42,310 bases of DNA from Chloroflexota bacterium (GTDB lineage Bacteria > Chloroflexota > Anaerolineae > Promineifilales > Promineifilaceae), in contig JAKEFB010000062.1 in assembly GCA_022616275.1 (NCBI GenBank), positions 1-42,310 on the forward strand. The letters run 5' to 3'. The position numbers and the translations under genes are program-made. The notes below the pieces were generated by a model. That model did no database searches, was not told the DNA's origin, and saw only the letters and a program-made list of their open reading frames with translations. Shown piece after piece: positions 2,386 through 29,609 of this stretch (positions within the stretch are counted from its first letter, which is position 1; the number at the start of each line of letters is the position of its first letter).

Positions 2386-2523
2386 GTGAGTGATCAGAAG
2401 CCATTCGATGTCTTTGAAGAGGAAGCGGACGAGCCCGGCCGCTGTAGCGCCGGCGTGCAGAACGGTCCGGAGAGCAGCGGTGCTTCCGGCCGTGAAGCGC
2501 TGGAAGAGAATAGGGTCCATTAG
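2386..2523 (+). CDS. small acidic hypothetical protein (45 aa)
   Basis: A GTG start at 2386 sits a few bases after a purine-rich GGAAGGGGCAG Shine-Dalgarno-like stretch. The frame reads MSDQKPFDVFEEEADEPGR and continues to a TAG at 2521-2523. It is acidic at the N-terminus and Gly/Ser/Glu-rich after that. It follows the hypothetical element protein by 42 bases on the same strand and could be the last gene of that unit. No family is recognised; length and composition alone cannot prove that it is translated. Confidence 0.4.
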   Translation: MSDQKPFDVFEEEADEPGRCSAGVQNGPESSGASGREALEENRVH

Positions 2524-2604
2524 GCGTCATGCCAGCAGCCAGAGTCAAAGGGACTACCTTCGAAGCCTCCGGGAGGATGGTAGCGAAATTAGCGAGAGAA
2601 CCAC

Positions 2605-3075
2605 TTAGCCGTCGGGCAGCACAAACTCCCAGGTAACCTCATAATCAGGCACGGCCGCTCTTATCAGGCTGTCTACAGGACAGTACCGGGAGACCAGGTC
2701 AATCAGCCGTTGTTGCTTCTCTGCAGGTTCGCCGCTAACCACACGCACGTGTAAACGCACCGCTTTGTAATGCACCGGTACGTCGGCCAGGCCTTTGCGC
2801 CCACGCGTGTCTAACACCCCTTCGGCATGGGTCTGTAGATCGACGTATTCAAAACGGATCTTGTCAGCCAGCCTGGCCGTCGATACGTTCGTTCAGGCGC
2901 AGAGGGCCGTCAGAATGAGTTCCAGCGGTGATGGCCCCAGATTCTCACCGCCGCGCGCCGGCGGCTCGTCAGAAATTACAGGTTCCAGGTCGCGCACGAA
3001 AATCTTTGAGGCCGAATGGCTTAACATTTCCCCTCGCGCGCGGTTGGTAACGATGTCCTCCGGCGTATCTTTCAT
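2605..3075 (-). CDS. OsmC-family thiol peroxidase-like protein, probable selenoprotein (TGA = Sec at residue 61)
   Basis: Read as two ORFs this looks broken, but the frame is continuous from ATG 3075 to TAA 2605 with a single in-frame TGA at 2893-2895. The N-terminal part ends in the OsmC helix motif LGPSPLELILTALCA. The next codon, where OsmC/Ohr proteins have the first (peroxidatic) cysteine, is TGA. It is followed by TNVSTARLADKIRFEY and then the second conserved cysteine in SRYCPVDSL. With Sec at residue 61 the protein is 156 residues, the normal OsmC length. Family members reduce organic hydroperoxides or related thiol/selenol substrates in the cytoplasm, and Sec-containing OsmC-like proteins are known from environmental sequence surveys. 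A hairpin with a GGC loop lies 20-22 bases after the TGA. The start overlaps the upstream oxidoreductase stop (ATGA), so it is the last gene of the long catabolic train. The alternative is a pseudogene with a Cys-to-stop change. Confidence 0.8.
2865..2895 (-). promoter_or_regulatory. candidate bacterial SECIS element after the TGA codon
   Basis: On the transcript, 13 bases after the TGA, CGGCCA (2879-2874) pairs with UGGCUG (2870-2865), six pairs with one G-U, closing a GGC loop (2873-2871). A small apical loop with a G in the first two positions, 16-37 bases from the UGA, is the known bacterial SECIS pattern recognised by SelB. Length, loop and spacing all fit. Folding was done by eye. Confidence 0.6.
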
Positions 3076-4082
3076 GGCACTTTCTCCAGAACAAAGCGAT
3101 CATGGGTATTAATAGCCTGGCGAATGACGCGCAACGCCGCCAGGGCCTCGGCCGGCCCCGTTTCCGGCGTTGCTTCGCCATGCACACAGCGGGCAAACTC
3201 GGCCAATTCCTCCACCAGCATGTCGCCCGATGCAAAGGCAACGCGTTGCCGGCCGCTCTTTGTCTGCAGGGTCAGCGTCGTCGCCGCGTCCATCTCTTCA
3301 GCACGCGGCCAGATGGACATATCCGTTTCATAGTTCAGATTGGCCTCAGTGCCATACAGGTGCAGGTAGAAACTCTTGGGCGACACGTAGCTGCTGCTTA
3401 ACGTGCCCAAGGCGCCGCTTTCAAATTCGAGCTGAGCCAGGCCCACGTCGTCAATCTCGGCCGTGGTCGCCAGGCGAGCGAACGCCCCTTGCGCTCGCCG
3501 CACCGGACCCAGCCAGTACTGTAAGGTATCGGCATGGTGAATGCCCAACTGCATCAACAGGCCGCCGGGGCAGGTTTTGCGGTAGTAACGCCACTTGTCC
3601 GGCGTCAGGGTGCCAGGCAGGGAAAAGTTAGCCTCGACCAGAACAACCTGCCCCAATACGCCCTGGTCGAGCAGCGTCTTCACCCGGCGCGCCGCCCCTA
3701 ACCGCCGGAAGGCATGACCTACCAACAGCGTAAGGCCGGCCTCGGCGCACGCTGCCTGCATGCGCTGGCCATCTTCCAGCGCATCGGCGATCGGCTTTTC
3801 CACGAAAACGTGCTTGCCGTGCTCAACGCAGGCAATCGTCCCCCGGGCATGAAGGTGATTAGGCGTTACTAGAAGTACGCCCTGTACTCTCGGATGGCTG
3901 ATGGCCGTCTCCAAAGAGACGGACGATTCACAACCAAATTCGGCCGCAAACGCATCCCGTTTTTCAGCCGTGCGGCTATAGCTGGTGACGATCTGCAAAT
4001 GCGGCGTACGCGCCACGGCCGCGGCCAGCCGCCGCCCCCACATGCCTGTGCCAATAAGGGCCACACCCACTCCTTCGTCCAC
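3072..4082 (-). CDS. Gfo/Idh/MocA-family NAD(P)-dependent oxidoreductase
   Basis: The N-terminal Rossmann fold has VALIGTGMWG at its start, followed by the EKPIA motif of the family near residue 100 and a C-terminal beta-sheet domain with GGLLMQLGIHHADTLQYW, which carries the catalytic-type histidines. Members oxidise or reduce sugars, inositols and other polyols or amino alcohols with bound NAD(P). The frame is open upstream to a TTG at 4109, but that TTG abuts its GGAGG with no spacing. The GTG at 4082, nine bases after an AAAGGAG, is the better start and gives 336 residues. Its stop overlaps the OsmC start, and an M24-fold gene ends 80 bases upstream. The substrate cannot be read from the sequence. 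Confidence 0.85.
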   Translation of the reverse strand: MDEGVGVALIGTGMWGRRLAAAVARTPHLQIVTSYSRTAEKRDAFAAEFGCESSVSLETAISHPRVQGVLLVTPNHLHARGTIACVEHGKHVFVEKPIADALEDGQRMQAACAEAGLTLLVGHAFRRLGAARRVKTLLDQGVLGQVVLVEANFSLPGTLTPDKWRYYRKTCPGGLLMQLGIHHADTLQYWLGPVRRAQGAFARLATTAEIDDVGLAQLEFESGALGTLSSSYVSPKSFYLHLYGTEANLNYETDMSIWPRAEEMDAATTLTLQTKSGRQRVAFASGDMLVEELAEFARCVHGEATPETGPAEALAALRVIRQAINTHDRFVLEKVP

Positions 4083-4162
4083 GGCGACAAACTCCTTTGT
4101 TTCTACCAACCTCCGTGAGGCCGTTATTGGAGAGAGACCTCACAACCCTGGCCCCCCAAGGT

Positions 4163-5362
4163 TCAAACGATGATCGGTTCAAACGGCACCTGATGCAGAC
4201 ACGCCCCACCCTCGTCGGTAACAATGGTGAGCGCACCCAATTGCAGGCCCATCCGCTCGTCGGGCGTAATGGGATTCGGTTGAATGACAATAGCCATATT
4301 TTTGTCAAAACGGCGCCCTGGCGGTGGGAGGCGGTTCTCATCCGAGAGCCAGTACTGGCAACACGACCGATCGATCAGCGGCGGGTGAATATCAACGCCG
4401 TAGCCGTGAATCAAATCGTCGTAGATGGCATAGCCATTCTGCCCGATGACCGAGGCCGCGCTAATGACGTCGCCCTCGCTGGCGCCCGGCCGGATAGTGG
4501 CGGCTATGCGGTGATAGGCTTCAAAGGCTGTATCAAACAGGCGCTGCCACACCGGTGTTGGCTCCGCGCCTACAAAAATGGGCCGGTGAATTTGTCCCGA
4601 ATAGCCCCAGTAAGAGGCGCTGATCTCGGTGATGATCACGTCACCTTGCTGAATAACGCGGCGGGAGGGGTTCTGCGCCGGCAAACAGCCGTTGGGTTCG
4701 TCCATCGGCATCGAGCGCAAAAAGGCGATATGGGGAAGGCCGCCGTCGGCCCGGTAGCTGCCTTCAATGATCCCCAGCAGCGCGTACTCGGGCAGGCCCG
4801 GCCGCACTTGCTCCTGTAAGGCGTAGATGGTCCGGTCGGTGAATCCGGCCGCCTTGCGCAACCAGGTTATCTCCTCCTCCGATTTGATGGTGCGCAGGCG
4901 GGTGAAGTGGAGGGTGACATCAATGAGTTCCACGTCGGGCAGACGCTGTCGCACCGTCTGGTAGTGTTGGTACGGCATCCCCATACCGAACTTGTGGTTA
5001 ACACCGACCAGTCCCAGGCGGCCGGTTGTCATCCCTGTCGCTTCCAGGCGAGCGGCTACCGTTTCCGCCGGGTTGTAGCCGCCCCACTCGATGATCGGTA
5101 TGTCGCTCACCTGCCGGGCGTTGGGCACGTGGTTGGCCAGGCCGGTGTAAAGCGCCGGCTCAATCGAGCCGTCCAGCGGCGCCACCAGGTAATTGTGGTG
5201 CAGGTCCAGGTGGTTAGTGAGCCAGAAGATGTTGGCTTCGTTGTGGCGGTTGACGCCCGAATTACCGAAGACCAGCAGCGCCATCAAATCGTGCTGGCGC
5301 ATTAGATCTCGCGCCAGCGACCAGCGCCGTTCCATTTCTTGGCGTGAGAACTTATCGAACAT
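4163..5362 (-). CDS. M24-family (creatinase/aminopeptidase fold) protein lacking most metal ligands
   Basis: An N-terminal creatinase_N-like domain (MERRWSLARDLMRQHDLMALL) and a C-terminal pita-bread domain are present. In metallopeptidases of the family the ligands are Asp, Asp, His, Glu, Glu. Here the first Asp region reads GDVIITEISASYWGYSGQIHR (both Asp positions lost), the His is kept in HGYGVDIHPP, and the two Glu positions read as Gln (VIQPNP) and Leu (GLQLGALTIV). So it is unlikely to be a metal-dependent aminopeptidase. Creatinase itself works without metal, so a hydrolase of a small amidino or amide compound is possible. The ATG at 5362 has GGAAGG eight bases upstream and is preferred over the TTG at 5383. 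It overlaps the upstream hydrolase by 11 bases, showing tight operon packing. Confidence 0.8.
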   Translation of the reverse strand: MFDKFSRQEMERRWSLARDLMRQHDLMALLVFGNSGVNRHNEANIFWLTNHLDLHHNYLVAPLDGSIEPALYTGLANHVPNARQVSDIPIIEWGGYNPAETVAARLEATGMTTGRLGLVGVNHKFGMGMPYQHYQTVRQRLPDVELIDVTLHFTRLRTIKSEEEITWLRKAAGFTDRTIYALQEQVRPGLPEYALLGIIEGSYRADGGLPHIAFLRSMPMDEPNGCLPAQNPSRRVIQQGDVIITEISASYWGYSGQIHRPIFVGAEPTPVWQRLFDTAFEAYHRIAATIRPGASEGDVISAASVIGQNGYAIYDDLIHGYGVDIHPPLIDRSCCQYWLSDENRLPPPGRRFDKNMAIVIQPNPITPDERMGLQLGALTIVTDEGGACLHQVPFEPIIV

Positions 5363-6440
5363 GGGTTGGCCTTCCGTGCTCAACGTTGGAGAGTTGCTCT
5401 TTCATCCAGTCAGCCACCAGTGGCCTATACTTGTAGGGGATATTGTTGCAAACGTGATTGCCGTCCTCGTACATCACCAGGGTGGCGTTGGGCGCTTCGG
5501 CCGCCAGCCGCTCGGCATGCTGGTAAGGGATCAGCCGATCCAGCTTGCCAAACACGACCAGCATGGGCTGCTGCACGCGCCCGGCCACACCTTCCAGGGT
5601 GAGCTGCCGGGCGCGCGCCTTCCCTTCCGCTTCATTGGCTGCGCCGGAATGGTGAACGAAGGTCTCGCGGGTAATCATGGGCAGGCTATCCCAGCACTCG
5701 CCAAAGTTATAAGGACCACCGATGGGCGCTGCGGCTTTGATGCGCGGTTCAAAAGCAGCCGCTCGTGGGGCGTAGTAGCCGCCCAGGCTGACACCCACCA
5801 CGCCGACGCGACCAGGGTCGAGGTCGGTCCGGCCATCTAGCGCGTCCAGCGCCGTCGCTACAGCAGCCTCGTAATCCGGCCGGATGTGCGAGTTGTAGCC
5901 TGTCTCCCCCTGTCCTGGACCTTCCAACGACAGCGTCGCCAGGCCCCGGCTCAAGTACACGTTCTCCCAGTGGAAAAACTCTTCTTTGGTCGAATCGAGT
6001 CCCGGCAGCAAAATCACCAGGGGCGGCCTCTCGGCACCGGCTGGCCGGCGCAGGTTTCCCACCATCCAATCGCCGTCCAGATCCATTTCGACGCGCTCGG
6101 CCGTGCGGTCGAGATGTCGATGGCCGGCGTAGAGGGCGGCTACGGCTTTGTCGGCCGCAACGCGATATTTATCCATCGCTACCATCCAGACAAACTTGGC
6201 AAAATGGTAACTCAGGGCGGCTCGCACCCAGGCCTCGCCGGCGCTCAGGAATCGGCCGTTGGCTTCGGCTTTCCCTGCCAGTTCCGCATGCATGTCGCCG
6301 TTGGCGCACCAGGCGTCGAGCCACTCCTCCCACCGTTCGATGCTGCCGGTGGTTCGCACAAAATCGTTATAGTCTACCCCTTGCGAAGTAAAGCGAGGAG
6401 CCCAATTTTTGATGGCTGCTTCTACTCTTGCGTCGGCCAT
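5352..6440 (-). CDS. alpha/beta hydrolase, 2,6-dihydroxypseudooxynicotine-hydrolase-like
   Basis: This 362-residue cytoplasmic hydrolase has a helical N-terminal domain of about 120 residues followed by the alpha/beta core. The oxyanion strand is ILLPGLDSTKEEF, the nucleophile elbow is GVSLGGYYAPR, an acid follows in VVFGKLDRLIP, and the catalytic histidine is in EDGNHVCNN. A long helical N-domain with GxSLGG is seen in the FrsA/DUF1100 group that includes the C-C bond hydrolase of nicotine breakdown. Only the family, not the substrate, is supported. GGAG lies upstream of ATG 6440. It sits between the FAD oxidoreductase (15-base gap) and the M24-like gene (overlap). Confidence 0.82.
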   Translation of the reverse strand: MADARVEAAIKNWAPRFTSQGVDYNDFVRTTGSIERWEEWLDAWCANGDMHAELAGKAEANGRFLSAGEAWVRAALSYHFAKFVWMVAMDKYRVAADKAVAALYAGHRHLDRTAERVEMDLDGDWMVGNLRRPAGAERPPLVILLPGLDSTKEEFFHWENVYLSRGLATLSLEGPGQGETGYNSHIRPDYEAAVATALDALDGRTDLDPGRVGVVGVSLGGYYAPRAAAFEPRIKAAAPIGGPYNFGECWDSLPMITRETFVHHSGAANEAEGKARARQLTLEGVAGRVQQPMLVVFGKLDRLIPYQHAERLAAEAPNATLVMYEDGNHVCNNIPYKYRPLVADWMKEQLSNVEHGRPTHVR

Positions 6441-24214: not shown

Positions 24215-25072
24215 ATGACTCTGGCCTATTTACGACCGGCATCTTTACCGGAAGCGGTGGAAGCGCTGTCGCAGTACGGTTACGACGCCAAAGTCATTGC
24301 CGGCGGCACGGCCGTCGTGCTGATGCTCCAGCAAAAGCTGATTGCTCCCCAGGTGTTGGTGAGTCTGGTGCGTATCCCCTTTCTGGACAGGATTGGGGTG
24401 GACGGCCAGGCGCTGCATCTTGGCCCCATGCTCTCTATGGACGCCGTAACCAGATCACCACTGATACAGGAGCGCCTCCCGGCACTGGCGCAAGCCTGCG
24501 CCGTCGTCGGCAACGTCCGTATCCGCAACCAGGCCACGCTGGGTGGTAACCTGGGCCACGCCGACTACGCCTCTGATCCGCCGGCGGTTCTGCTGGCGCT
24601 GGATGCCTCGGTGCTGGTCTATGGTCCCCCCGGGAAGCGGACTATTCCCCTGGCAGACTTTCTTCTCGGTTTCTACACCACTGCCTTATCAGCCGAAGAA
24701 GTGATTGCTGATATCGTTATTCCATCCCTTCCTCTTGATACGCAGATGGTCTATCTCAAATACCGGACGCGCTCGTCAGAAGACCGCCCCTGTGTAGGCG
24801 TAGCGGCCGTAGCGACGATGGACGGCAAGATTTGTCGCGATTTGCGCCTGGCCGTTGGCGCTGCCACCGAAGTCCCGCAGCGCCTGGCCCGGATCGAAGC
24901 ACTGGCGCAGAATCAGGTGCTGTCGGACGAACTCATTGATGAGATTGCCGGCCAGTACGCCGCCGGTCTGGATCCGCTCGACGATCTGCGCGGCTCAGCC
25001 TGGTACCGGCGGCAACTGATCAGAGTGCAGGTGAAGCGAGCCCTGAAGGCGGTGAGCGGTGGCCCTGGGTAA
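24215..25072 (+). CDS. molybdenum hydroxylase FAD-binding subunit (CoxM/CutM type)
   Basis: This 285-residue subunit begins LAYLRPASLPEAVEAL and has the FAD-binding AGGTAVV and TLGGNLGHADYASDPP motifs, plus a CO-dehydrogenase-type C-terminal domain from about residue 175. It passes electrons from the iron-sulfur subunit to an external acceptor. Together with the next two genes it makes the usual M-L-S heterotrimer of the xanthine-oxidase family. No good ribosome site precedes ATG 24215, but the promoter ends just upstream. It overlaps the large-subunit gene by 14 bases. Confidence 0.93.
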   Translation: MTLAYLRPASLPEAVEALSQYGYDAKVIAGGTAVVLMLQQKLIAPQVLVSLVRIPFLDRIGVDGQALHLGPMLSMDAVTRSPLIQERLPALAQACAVVGNVRIRNQATLGGNLGHADYASDPPAVLLALDASVLVYGPPGKRTIPLADFLLGFYTTALSAEEVIADIVIPSLPLDTQMVYLKYRTRSSEDRPCVGVAAVATMDGKICRDLRLAVGAATEVPQRLARIEALAQNQVLSDELIDEIAGQYAAGLDPLDDLRGSAWYRRQLIRVQVKRALKAVSGGPG

Positions 25073-27293
25073 AGCAATACCGATGAGTGACGCGGTGGCG
25101 CGAGTGACGGGCACTATCCCTTATACTGTCAATCTACAGTTACCGGAAACGCTCGTGGTCAAGGTACTGCGCAGCCCACTACCCCATGCGCGCCTCGTCC
25201 GTCTCGACGCCAGCGCGGCTGAGGCAATGGATGGCGTCGTAGCCGTCCTCACCAGCGCCGACCTCGGCCAGCCAGGGGGCCCCAGCACTTTCTCGGGCGT
25301 GCTGTGGAAAGATCAACCGGTCGTTGCCGATGATAAAGTGCGTTACATCGGCGAACCCGTCGCCGCCGTTGCCGCCACCACAGAAGAAATCGCTGAGGCA
25401 GCGCTCACTGCCATTGAACTTGGGTACGAGGAGTTGCCGGCCGTCTACGACGCTGTCGCTGCCACAAAGGGGGAAACAGCGACCGTCCACGACAAGTACC
25501 CGGATAATATCTTTCTCCACGCCAAACTGCGCCATGGCGACATCGCCGCCGGCTTTGCCGCGGCCGACGTAATCATCGAAGAAAGCTACACCAGTCCCAT
25601 CGCTCAGCACGTGACGATGGAGCCGCACGTCACAGCAGCCCAGTGGCACAACGACCAACTCACCGTCTGGACCGCGACCCAGGCGCCTTACCTCGTGCAG
25701 GCTGCCCTGGCCGAGCTGTTTGCATTGGACTCCGCTCAGGTCCGCGTGATTGTACCCCCATTGGGTGGTGGTTATGGCGGCAAGGGACACCTCCGGCTGG
25801 AACCTTTGGTCTCGGCGCTGGCCTGGAAAGTCGGCGGCCGGCCGGTTAAGTTGGTGCTGACCCGGCCGGAAGAGTTCGTCACCGTTACCAAGCACGCGGC
25901 CACCATCCACATCAAAAGCGGCGTCAGGCGCGACGGCGCCTTTACCGCCCGACAGGTAACCATTTATTGGAACGGCGGCGCCTATGCCGACGCCAGCCCT
26001 TCCCTGGTGCGTGCCGGCATGGTTCGCGCCATCGGTCCCTATCGCATTGCCAACGTCTGGGTCGATTCCTACGGCGTTTATACCAACCTGCCTCCGGCCG
26101 GCGCCTTTCGTGGCGCGATGGCTTCACAGGGCGCCTGGGCCTACGAGTCCCACATAGACACCATTGCCCACCGCCTGGGACTGAACCCGCTGGAATACCG
26201 CCTGGCCCATCTGCTCCAAGACGGCGACCACTTTGCCACGGGCGAGATCCTGCACGATGTTCATTTCAGCAAATGCCTGAAGACGGCCGCCGGCCGCTTG
26301 AATCAGCAGGCAACAGCACCCGCACATCCGGCGCCAACACGCCGGCGTGGCCGCGGTCTGGCCGTGATGATGAAGAGCACCATGCCAACCTCACGCTCTG
26401 AATGCCGCCTATCCCTAAACAGTGCCGGCCAGATCACGCTGTACACCAGTACCGTCGAGATGGGACAGGGTACTCACACCGCCCTATCCCAAATTACCGC
26501 CGCGGCCATGGAAATGCCGCCAGACCGGGTGGTGGTCGTCGGACCGGACACAGCCCGCACGCCCTTCGACAGCAGCACCAACGCCAGTCGCGGCACGACG
26601 ATGATGGGCCAGGCTATTGTGGACGGCGCCCAAAAGTTGAAGGAAAAGTTAATTGACGCGGCCGTACCGCTGCTCGAGCACGCTGCAGAGGAACTGGCGG
26701 CCGCCAGTGGCCACGTGATAGTCAAAGCGCAGCCGGAGCGGTGCATCTCTTATGGCGAAATCGTCGCTCGTAACCATCACCAATCTATCGAAGCGATGGG
26801 GACGTACCAGACCAGAGGTGGCCTGGATCCAGAAACCGGCCAGGGGCTGGCTACACCGCATTGGCATCAGGGTGCTGGCGCCTGCCAGGTCGAGGTAGAT
26901 ACGGAGACGGGCAAGGTCACCGTCCTGCGCTACGTTGGCACCGCCTGGGCCGGCCGTGTCGTCAATCCAACCCTGGCTAAGCTGCAAAACGATGGCAACG
27001 TCATTTTCGGCCTGGGGCCGGCCGTTATGGAAGAAGTGCTCGTAGATGCCGGCCAGATCGTCAATCCCAACCTGTCCGATTATCTCATCCCCTCTTTTCT
27101 AGATATTCCTACTGAGCTGGAAACAGTGGCGCTGGAGAGCGAAGGCGGCGAGATCCATGGCATCGGCGAAATGACGCTACCATGTGTGGCTCCAGCCATC
27201 GCTAACGCCGTTTACGACGCTGTCGGCATTCGCATCTATGACCTTCCCATCACGGCCGAGAAAGTATTGAAAGCGCTGCAACATGAGCAGTGA
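25059..27293 (+). CDS. molybdenum hydroxylase large (molybdopterin-binding) subunit, xanthine-dehydrogenase family
   Basis: This 744-residue catalytic subunit starts at GTG 25059 and has VARVTGTIPYTVNL, the GGGYGGKGHLRLEP cofactor segment, the PPAGAFRGAMASQGAWAYE block and the catalytic glutamate in IHGIGEMTLP near the C-terminus. The active-site loop is GAFRGAM, not the AYxCSFR loop of form I CO dehydrogenase, so it should hydroxylate or oxidise an organic substrate (purine, N-heterocycle or aldehyde type). Only the family can be named. Its partners are the FAD and 2Fe-2S subunits beside it. No molybdenum-cofactor insertion gene was seen in the window. Confidence 0.93.
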   Translation: MALGKAIPMSDAVARVTGTIPYTVNLQLPETLVVKVLRSPLPHARLVRLDASAAEAMDGVVAVLTSADLGQPGGPSTFSGVLWKDQPVVADDKVRYIGEPVAAVAATTEEIAEAALTAIELGYEELPAVYDAVAATKGETATVHDKYPDNIFLHAKLRHGDIAAGFAAADVIIEESYTSPIAQHVTMEPHVTAAQWHNDQLTVWTATQAPYLVQAALAELFALDSAQVRVIVPPLGGGYGGKGHLRLEPLVSALAWKVGGRPVKLVLTRPEEFVTVTKHAATIHIKSGVRRDGAFTARQVTIYWNGGAYADASPSLVRAGMVRAIGPYRIANVWVDSYGVYTNLPPAGAFRGAMASQGAWAYESHIDTIAHRLGLNPLEYRLAHLLQDGDHFATGEILHDVHFSKCLKTAAGRLNQQATAPAHPAPTRRRGRGLAVMMKSTMPTSRSECRLSLNSAGQITLYTSTVEMGQGTHTALSQITAAAMEMPPDRVVVVGPDTARTPFDSSTNASRGTTMMGQAIVDGAQKLKEKLIDAAVPLLEHAAEELAAASGHVIVKAQPERCISYGEIVARNHHQSIEAMGTYQTRGGLDPETGQGLATPHWHQGAGACQVEVDTETGKVTVLRYVGTAWAGRVVNPTLAKLQNDGNVIFGLGPAVMEEVLVDAGQIVNPNLSDYLIPSFLDIPTELETVALESEGGEIHGIGEMTLPCVAPAIANAVYDAVGIRIYDLPITAEKVLKALQHEQ

Positions 27294-27792
27294 GATACCG
27301 GCTATAACCGGAACCAGAACGCTATCCCTGCACGTTAACGGCCAAAACCATGCCTTGGCGCTGGCTCCTGACCGGCTGCTGCTGGACGTTCTACGTGGCG
27401 AGCTGGGGCTGTTTGGCGCTCGCAGTGGCTGTGACATTGGCATGTGCGGCGCCTGCACCGTGCTGGTGGACGGCCGTCCCATCAGCAGTTGTCTAACGCT
27501 GGCCATCCAGGTCGAAGGGCGCCAGATCACTACCGTCGAGGGATTGGCGCAGGATGGACGGCTCCATCCGGTGCAGCAAGCCTACATTGACCATGCCGCG
27601 TTCCAATGCGCCTATTGCACGCCCGGCTTCATCCTGACCACTGTCGCTTTGTTAGCGGAGGATCCCAGCCCCGGCGATGACAAGATTCGCGAGTACCTGG
27701 CCGGCAATCTTTGCCGCTGCGGCAGCTACCTGAACGTTCTGGAGGCAGTACGCGCCTGTTGTTCGCCAGTAGAGAAGATCGATGCTGATTAA
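27283..27792 (+). CDS. molybdenum hydroxylase 2Fe-2S subunit (CoxS type)
   Basis: This 169-residue protein has a plant-type 2Fe-2S site (SGCDIGMCGACTVLVDG, then SC) and a second C-terminal cluster with CAYCTPG and CRCGSY. Both clusters are complete. It wires the molybdenum centre to FAD. It starts 11 bases inside the large-subunit gene and overlaps the next gene by 11 bases. The C-terminal tail is a little longer than usual. Confidence 0.94.
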   Translation: MSSEIPAITGTRTLSLHVNGQNHALALAPDRLLLDVLRGELGLFGARSGCDIGMCGACTVLVDGRPISSCLTLAIQVEGRQITTVEGLAQDGRLHPVQQAYIDHAAFQCAYCTPGFILTTVALLAEDPSPGDDKIREYLAGNLCRCGSYLNVLEAVRACCSPVEKIDAD

Positions 27793-28234
27793 GGACAACT
27801 TTGTGGTCGATGCCCCCATTGAAAGGATCTGGGCCTTCATCCTCGACATTCCGCGCGTCAGCGCCTGTATGCCCGGCGCTCAAGATGTCAGGCAGGTAGA
27901 AGAAAACCTGTACACCGGCAAGCTCAATACGCGCGTAGGCGCTATCCAGGCTGCGTTCGACGGCCGGGTTGAGGTAGTCGAGCGAATTGAGCCGGAGCGA
28001 CTGGTAGCCGCCATTCGGGCCGAAGATCGACGGCTGGCCAGCGTGGTGACCGCCACCTTTACCAGCCAACTGGAGCCGATCGGGGCAGGCACGCGCATCG
28101 CCTATGAGATAGATCTGGCGCTGCGTGGCCGCCTGGCGCAGATCGGTTACTCAAGTATGCAACAGTTGATCCGCAAAATGACGGCCGAATTTGCTGACTG
28201 TCTGCAACAATCGCTATCGGCAGAAATCAACTAA
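27782..28234 (+). CDS. CoxG-like SRPBCC-domain protein
   Basis: The 150-residue protein has the START/SRPBCC opening DNFVVDAPIERIWAFILDIP, the ACMPGAQDVRQVEENLYTGK segment and a terminal helix. CoxG-like proteins follow molybdenum hydroxylase genes and are thought to aid membrane or partner binding. It is the last gene of the operon. Its stop codon is part of the 5-base target duplication of the downstream IS, so the IS landed exactly at the gene end without harming it. Confidence 0.9.
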   Translation: MLIKDNFVVDAPIERIWAFILDIPRVSACMPGAQDVRQVEENLYTGKLNTRVGAIQAAFDGRVEVVERIEPERLVAAIRAEDRRLASVVTATFTSQLEPIGAGTRIAYEIDLALRGRLAQIGYSSMQQLIRKMTAEFADCLQQSLSAEIN

Positions 28235-28235
28235 G

Positions 28236-29609
28236 TAATCGTCCGTTTTTAACTTAGCGGTATCGTGTACAATCTCTCCCCCAAGCAGAAATGAGCGGAG
28301 AGACAAAAATGAAGGTTCGAGAAGTCCATCACTGTCAATGTGAGATTTGTCAAAAGCCTGAACCAGATCCTGAGAAAACTATCCACCACCAGATGAATGT
28401 GTTTATGAGCCGGCTGGATGAGCAGCAACGACGGTGGTATGCGGCGATAGAAGCAGAGAAATTAGGCCATGGCGGCACAGAACGAGTGGCCCTCATCACC
28501 GGTCTGAATATTAACACGATTCGACGTGGTCGGCGGGAAATGGCCAGAGAACTAGCCGGCCGGCCGAGCGGGCGAACGCGCCTGGCGGGTGGTGGGCGTA
28601 AAGCCGTTGAAAAAAAAAGCCAACCATCGAGGCAGCCCTCCAGGAAGTAGTGGCCGATGATATCGCCGGTGACCCGACGGGCAAAGGGCAATGGGTACAC
28701 AAGAGTTTACGACAGATGGCCCAAGCCTTGAGCAAGCGCCAGTATCGAATAGGACGGACGACCGTGCGACGACTGTTGAAAAAGCTGGAGTACGGCTTGT
28801 TAGCCAATCGTAAAAGCCTGACGGGGCGGTCACATCCTGACCGTGACCGGCAGTTTCGCTACCTCAAGCGGGTCAAGAAGCTGTTTCTTGAGGCTGGATT
28901 GCCCGTCATCAGTGTGGACACCAAGGACAAGGAGTTGATTGGCAACTTTGCCAACAAGGGCCGCACTTGGCGCCAGCAACCGGAACAGGTCAACCTTCAC
29001 GATTTCCGCCAAGATGCCCTGGGCCGGGCCGTTCCCTACGGCATTTATGACCTGACCCACAATCAGGGCTATGTCTATGTCGGGACCTCCAATGATACGC
29101 CTGAATTCGCCGCTTCCGCTATCGCCCAGTGGTGGACTGACCCAGAGCGTCCCCGTTTTCAGCGTGAGGATATGCTCCTCATCCTCTGTGATGCCGGGGG
29201 CAGCAATAACTGTCGCTTCTGGCTGTGGAAATACTATCTCCAAGAGCAGTTGGCTGACCAGTTTGGTCTCGCCGTCATGGTCTGTCACTATCCCACTGGC
29301 GCTTCCAAGTACAACCCGGTCGAGTATCGCCTCTTCAGCCAGATGACCCGCAACTGGGCTGGCAAACCGCTCCATTCTTTTGCCGCCCTGCTCGCTTACA
29401 TTCGCGGTACCGCTACCCAAACCGGTTTAACCGTCAAAGCCTTTCTCCTTGACCGGCTCTTTGCCAAAGGGCGCAAACTATCCAAGGAAGCCCGGACGGC
29501 CATTCAGCTTGAGCGACGGCCCATCTGCCCTAACTGGAACTACATTATCAGGCCGCGCACCTCAACTACTATTTCTTTGTCAAAGTGCTAACTTGTTTTT
29601 GGACAGTTA
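28236..29609 (+). mobile_element. ISAzo13-family insertion sequence with 5-bp CTAAG target duplication
   Basis: The ends are TAATCGTCCGTTTTTAACTT (then AGC) on the left and the inverse of TAACTGTCCAAAAACAAGTT (then AGC) on the right, sharing TAA, GTCC, an A-or-T-rich centre and TTAGC. Both sides are flanked by CTAAG (28231-28235 and 29610-29614). The element is 1374 bp and holds one transposase gene, split by a frame change. It separates the convergent coxG-like gene and the small membrane-protein gene at 29638-29802. Confidence 0.82.
28291..29591 (+). CDS. ISAzo13-family transposase, made by a -1 frameshift at an A9 run
   Basis: The first frame (28291-28650, 119 aa) and second frame (open from about 28617, ending 29591) join at nine adenines (28610-28618). 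A -1 slip on A AAA AAA gives a 433-residue protein, close to the family length. The N-terminal part has a helix-turn-helix (ALITGLNINTIRRGRREMA). The catalytic part has ISVDTKDKELIGNF (first Asp), LILCDAGGSNNCRF (second Asp) and KYNPVEYRLFSQMTRNW (Glu), the DDE set of ISAzo13. Whether the slip is programmed or a decayed frameshift cannot be told by reading. Both frames look otherwise intact. It acts on its own IS ends. Confidence 0.85.

Follow-up and report, generated by a model that had tools for sequence, protein, structure and literature searches.

Does the TGA codon inside an OsmC-family frame of a Chloroflexota bacterium encode selenocysteine (Sec), or is it a lesion? The frame lies on the minus strand of a 42,310-bp stretch of DNA, below called the window, and a sequence-only reading of this stretch had proposed that the gene encodes a probable selenoprotein. 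The features needed for the argument are as follows.

2605..3075, minus strand: OsmC-family gene, probable selenoprotein; 156 codons and a TAA stop, with an in-frame TGA at codon 61
2893..2895, minus strand: TGA codon 61, the proposed Sec codon; occupies the invariant OsmC cysteine position
2680..2682, minus strand: codon 132, the second Cys (SRYCPV), a candidate resolving cysteine from sequence and alignment
2865..2879, minus strand: SECIS-like hairpin, a 6-bp stem with a 3-nt GGC loop (2871–2873); longer fold at about 2852–2890
3072..4109, minus strand: Gfo/Idh/MocA oxidoreductase, ending in a TGA that overlaps the start codon of OsmC (ATGA)
4163..5383, minus strand: peptidase M24/creatinase-like gene, in the same gene run
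24215..28234, plus strand: molybdenum hydroxylase set (FAD subunit, MoCo subunit, 2Fe-2S subunit, CoxG)

The OsmC frame and its relatives

Translation of the minus-strand frame from 3075 to 2605 yields 156 residues and ends in TAA; the only stop inside is the TGA of codon 61, just as the sequence-only reading had it. Read through the TGA, the frame matches the OsmC profile of Pfam (PF02566) over residues 43–142 with 61.4 bits (cut-off 27.5, E 1.2e-16), and the solved structures matched by the protein are OsmC-like, e.g. 2opl and 1vla. The TGA had been placed at the reactive cysteine of the family, and the alignment agrees: all 29 OsmC proteins aligned have either TGA (five) or Cys (24) in column 61 (the rows were selected from the found loci and are a subset of all matches; TGA is displayed as C). 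The second conserved cysteine is intact, as claimed, being present in the window protein as C132 within SRYCPV, so that a reactive Cys/Sec position and a second Cys occur together. Residue 61 is presumably the reactive one, and the second Cys presumably has the role known from OsmC/Ohr proteins. The redox motif in all five TGA genes is U-T/A-N-V, that is, UTNV or UANV (UxxV). One close relative of the Cys form (locus L056, OsmC at 3001–3465) has Ser in place of C132 (SRYSPV), so that not all members of the subfamily have the resolving cysteine. The same assembly encodes a second OsmC-like protein (L052, G000:C291:165-491), which contains Cys and is 33% identical to the window protein.

A search of 99 genomes, the window's own included, produced an OsmC match at E 1e-3 in 63 of them. 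Internal stops were flagged in the window's own gene, in G032:C57 (one TGA) and in G070:C159 (two TAG). The G032:C57 candidate for an internal Sec codon was rejected, the TGA being the terminal stop of its gene. Three close loci (L054, L055, L056) were found among genome contigs with the window protein as query; a scan of viral contigs gave no relative. Searches with a five-row alignment were run at strict cut-offs and thus cover close OsmC genes, not more distant ones. At E 1e-25 they matched in three of 397 genomes of the class, two of 12 genomes of the G704 family and three of 396 genomes of the G486 class, and at E 1e-15 in three of 154 genomes of the G486 order; the new loci overall were L076, L080 and L081. 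Judging by contig number and place, the matches in G485 and G621 are the same, as are those in G1068 and G704. Among 400 genomes of the phylum, 13 pass E 1e-12, and the internal stop is found only in the window's own.

At the site, TGA is found in five species of the close group and Cys in three. Apart from the window gene, TGA is present in Anaerolineae bacterium HKST-UBA12 (L054, 76% identical to the window protein), Chloroflexi bacterium Ww65 (L055, 71%), G704 (L076, 70%) and G1184 (L080, 69%). The Cys forms, with identity taken over the whole length, are those of Chloroflexi bacterium RBG_19FT_COMBO_62_14 (L056, 68%), G1220 (L081, 66%) and L020 (51%), the last being the nearest non-self match in the 99-genome search; their codon 61 is TGC or TGT. 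The in-frame TGA aligns to Cys, with both flanks conserved. Further stops or indels at the site in the same clade had been named in advance as evidence against Sec. The alignment of the eight close relatives has no further stop, and as to indels, the gene body has just one, far downstream, where L054 carries one extra residue.

The history of the site was considered on a tree of ten proteins with the Sec/Cys column removed; an earlier 29-row tree was set aside for its long branches. On the ten-protein tree, in which five of the seven internal branches are left open, the TGA and Cys labels show no excess clustering (439 of 500 shuffles are as low). L080 with TGA and L081 with Cys are sisters (support 95/93), and a topology in which the five TGA proteins form one group is rejected (p-AU 0.009). 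As far as these sequences tell, exchange between Sec and Cys seems to have occurred repeatedly in the subfamily.

Selenocysteine machinery and the hairpin after the TGA

A Sec codon would mean that the organism has a Sec pathway, and selC, selA, selB and selD are indeed all present in the assembly to which the window belongs (contig C263 of 309, 8.53 Mb, 98.25% complete, 5.5% contaminated). The tRNA-Sec scores 70.2 bits (cut-off 47) and is called by ARAGORN as SeC with anticodon tca; the scores are 334 bits for SelB (cut-off 242), 569 for SelA (cut-off 268) and 366 for SelD (cut-off 125). Of 14 control genomes, five exceed the cut-off for tRNA-Sec, two for SelB, one for SelA and two for SelD. 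Counted against this evidence is the location of the sel genes on contigs other than the window's, given the level of contamination. The G+C content is 0.596 in the window and 0.601, 0.646, 0.628 and 0.646 in the stretches with tRNA-Sec, SelB, SelA and SelD, respectively. SelA was also sought in eight genomes, those of L076, L080 and L081 being left out, and exceeds the cut-off in all of them: the window's, the TGA genomes of L054 and L055, and five with Cys OsmC. Since it is found with the Cys form too, the presence of SelA does not separate the Sec and Cys forms.

Two other observations concern the same machinery. SelD is commonly a selenoprotein, and the SelD gene of this genome (L016, G000:C60:33807-34742) has one in-frame TGA (SCAG-U-ASKLG) with a stem-loop behind it; judging from its sequence, it is probably a selenoprotein itself. 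A second tRNA-Sec match (L002, G000:C251:1966-2051) has 49.4 bits, barely above the cut-off, and may be a tRNA of another type with a long variable arm.

A search for a SECIS element had been suggested as a check, and a SECIS-like hairpin is common to the five TGA genes and absent from the three Cys genes. Counting from the U of UGA, nucleotides 17–22 pair with 26–31, and the GGN loop starts 19 nt past the UGA. The six-pair stem is possible in all five TGA genes (30 of 30 pair cells), one pair varying among G-C, A-U and G-U; the three Cys genes have seven of 18 pair cells, and none forms the hairpin. When the 48 nt starting at the UGA are folded, the minimum-energy structure includes the hairpin in all five TGA genes. 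When each gene is compared with 5000 synonymous resamples, the energy p is 0.082 for the window gene and 0.0050, 0.0072, 0.0152 and 0.0166 for the other TGA genes (Fisher's combined value 7e-6, computed as if the related genes were independent tests); for the Cys genes it is 0.48, 0.79 and 0.91. The complete six-pair stem arises in 55–91 of the 5000 resamples of each TGA gene.

The codons point the same way. The GG of the loop comes from the AGG codon of Arg68 in all five TGA genes, the codon being CGN in all three Cys genes; AGG makes up 33 of the 508 Arg codons of the 23 window genes. Among invariant residues, identical codons across the five TGA genes are seen for two of three within the hairpin (codons 66–71) and for none of 16 elsewhere in codons 62–94.

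From the window gene alone, the evidence for the hairpin is weak. Dinucleotide shuffles of six frames give z between -0.41 and -2.00, and the longest of these frames (2830–2910, 81 nt) has a minimum-energy fold that lacks the hairpin. When the energy of the 19-nt hairpin is taken by itself, p relative to synonymous resamples is below 0.05 in two of the four TGA genes tested. Covariation is thin, as a single pair varies and 151 of 500 shuffles of the columns are equally good. The published criteria, taken from a passage of a 2026 review (PMC13188914) and applied with our own script, demand a loop of 3–9 nt with G in the first two positions, a stem of 4–16 bp, a spacing of 16–37 nt and a minimum free energy of at most -7.5. 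They are passed by all five TGA genes and by one of the three Cys genes (L056); in the 23 window genes, 1690 of all 7752 codons and 14 of the 63 Cys codons pass as well. As about one fifth of the window codons pass, passing is weak evidence by itself, and the criteria were dropped as a stand-alone test for being too loose. The RF00031 (SECIS_1) profile has no match anywhere, and since the controls are silent too, this carries no information; the Rfam scan of 2400–3200 gives two matches, both at chance level.

Selection past the TGA and rival explanations

Substitutions were counted by our implementation of the Nei–Gojobori procedure in ungapped blocks of the window gene, L054, L055 and L076, that is, in six pairs, L080 being left out. 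Downstream of the TGA, pS is 0.66–0.90 and pN is 0.15–0.22; upstream, pS is 0.73–0.84 and pN is 0.09–0.23. The pN values are low relative to pS on both sides, which upholds the claim that both halves are well conserved. Synonymous sites being nearly saturated and the protein conserved, the stretch after the TGA is translated and under purifying selection. In lineages old enough for such saturation, this speaks against both a pseudogene and an error of assembly.

One base change, from TGC or TGT to TGA, would suffice for a nonsense mutation that left either a recent pseudogene or a gene expressed as a 60-residue fragment only. We consider this very improbable, as the TGA recurs in five species with proteins 69–76% identical to that of the window, the synonymous sites are close to saturation, and the protein is conserved past the TGA. 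A single-base error of assembly or sequencing is conceivable in a draft of 309 contigs with 5.5% contamination. However, the separate assemblies of HKST-UBA12, Ww65, G704 and G1184 carry the same codon, and the TGA is followed by a hairpin that is missing from the Cys relatives, hence this explanation, which had been raised from the beginning, is the least probable of all. Some bacteria reassign TGA, and a general recoding (e.g. to Trp, Cys or Gly), or a suppressor tRNA acting with no SECIS, would also allow the frame to be read through. But eight of the 23 window genes end in TGA, including the upstream gene that overlaps the OsmC start, and general recoding was rejected on this ground; moreover, tRNA-Sec and SelB are present and the hairpin accompanies the TGA, so any reading of this kind has very little to recommend it.

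The TGA is almost certainly read as Sec, since related species keep both the same TGA and a hairpin of the kind needed. The proposal of a probable selenoprotein is supported by the conserved TGA, the machinery, the selection and the shared hairpin, and the window gene very probably encodes an OsmC-like thiol redox protein whose reactive cysteine is replaced by Sec. UGA codon 61 would be decoded by tRNA-Sec delivered by SelB, the latter being recruited by the hairpin whose loop starts 19 nt downstream, and SelA and SelD would make the Sec-tRNA; we infer these steps from the known bacterial pathway and the presence of the genes. Judging by its family, the protein most likely acts in the manner of other OsmC/Ohr proteins: the selenol would reduce (organic) hydroperoxides, and Cys132 would resolve the selenenic acid. 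Gene callers cut such genes at the TGA, and hence the protein would be missed or split in annotation.

Known OsmC selenoproteins and the gene neighbourhood

The best match of the window protein in NCBIfam is NF041052 (OsmC_like_Se), an OsmC model named for a selenoprotein (64.5 bits, E 9.8e-18, residues 33–143). However, the cut-off of this model is 95 bits, and thus the window protein falls outside the curated family. The same model is the sole NCBIfam match (E up to 0.001) of the Cys relatives L020 and L056.

Selenoproteins of this family are already known. The Sargasso Sea study of 2005 predicted OsmC-like selenoproteins from three sequences with the motif UxxT (PMC1088965), the corresponding table row for the GOS metagenomes gives OsmC-like selenoproteins, again with UxxT and with the value 5 (PMC2398784), and OsmC-like selenoproteins are listed in reviews of 2022 and 2026 (PMC9312934, PMC13188914), the latter naming MCS5647933.1, for instance, among the UxxT proteins. 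The Sargasso/GOS proteins (COG1765/PF02566) share with the window group the OsmC family, Sec in the redox motif and a predicted bacterial SECIS downstream. They differ in the published motif, the window group having UxxV in five of five genes and UxxT in none, and in origin, as they come from marine metagenomes, whereas the window group comes from assembled Chloroflexota genomes. A survey of 2006 counts three selenoproteins in the Chloroflexi, and the word OsmC is absent from it (PMC1794560). Our full-text literature search, with most subscription journals outside its reach, found no title or opening of an abstract on OsmC selenoproteins of Chloroflexota. The window gene is a new branch of a known kind; to the marine metagenomes as sources of OsmC selenoproteins it adds assembled genomes of Chloroflexota, where the gene context hints at function.

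In the window, the ATGA overlap suggests that the Gfo/Idh/MocA and OsmC genes are probably co-translated. The minus-strand run upstream of OsmC consists of genes for Gfo/Idh, M24 peptidase, an alpha/beta hydrolase, an amine oxidase-like protein, an amidohydrolase, a nitroreductase, EamA and an ABC transporter of the branched-chain amino-acid type. The molybdenum hydroxylase set with CoxG is on the opposite strand, beyond a GntR regulator, and is divergent from this catabolic run. The order in L055 is Gfo/Idh, cupin, OsmC (TGA), CoxG, MoCo subunit, and in L076 it is Gfo/Idh, a frame with no Pfam match, OsmC (TGA), CoxG. In L080, OsmC is preceded by a cupin-like frame slightly under the cut-off (26.7 bits against 27.2). 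The context of L054 differs, with EamA upstream and a frame with no match downstream. The Cys form L056 likewise has cupin before and CoxG after OsmC, and M24 is also upstream, as in the window (M24, an intervening stretch, cupin, OsmC, CoxG). The gene neighbours suggest that the OsmC selenoprotein may serve a catabolic pathway that involves oxidoreductases of the flavin and molybdenum types, where a peroxide-reducing selenoprotein would be useful.

On balance, we lean towards a separate Chloroflexota subfamily of UxxV OsmC selenoproteins, outside OsmC_like_Se and tied to a catabolic cluster of molybdenum-hydroxylase, M24 and Gfo/Idh genes. In this subfamily repeated Sec/Cys exchanges would have taken place among close relatives, with the loop of the SECIS being gained and lost together with the UGA via synonymous codons, AGG versus CGN of Arg68. 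The Cys relatives L056, L081 and L020, with TGC or TGT at codon 61, have no such hairpin. The subfamily offers a natural series of Sec and Cys orthologs in which the hairpin is present or absent to match. What a Sec/Cys switch costs and what it gains, and how a SECIS arises inside a coding sequence, can be tested on it directly.

Elsewhere in the window, the 452-aa plus-strand frame at 985–2343 has no match in Pfam, PHROGs or NCBIfam. A DDE transposase of the ISAZ013 type is situated at 28291–29591, with a 119-aa frame that has no Pfam match directly before it.
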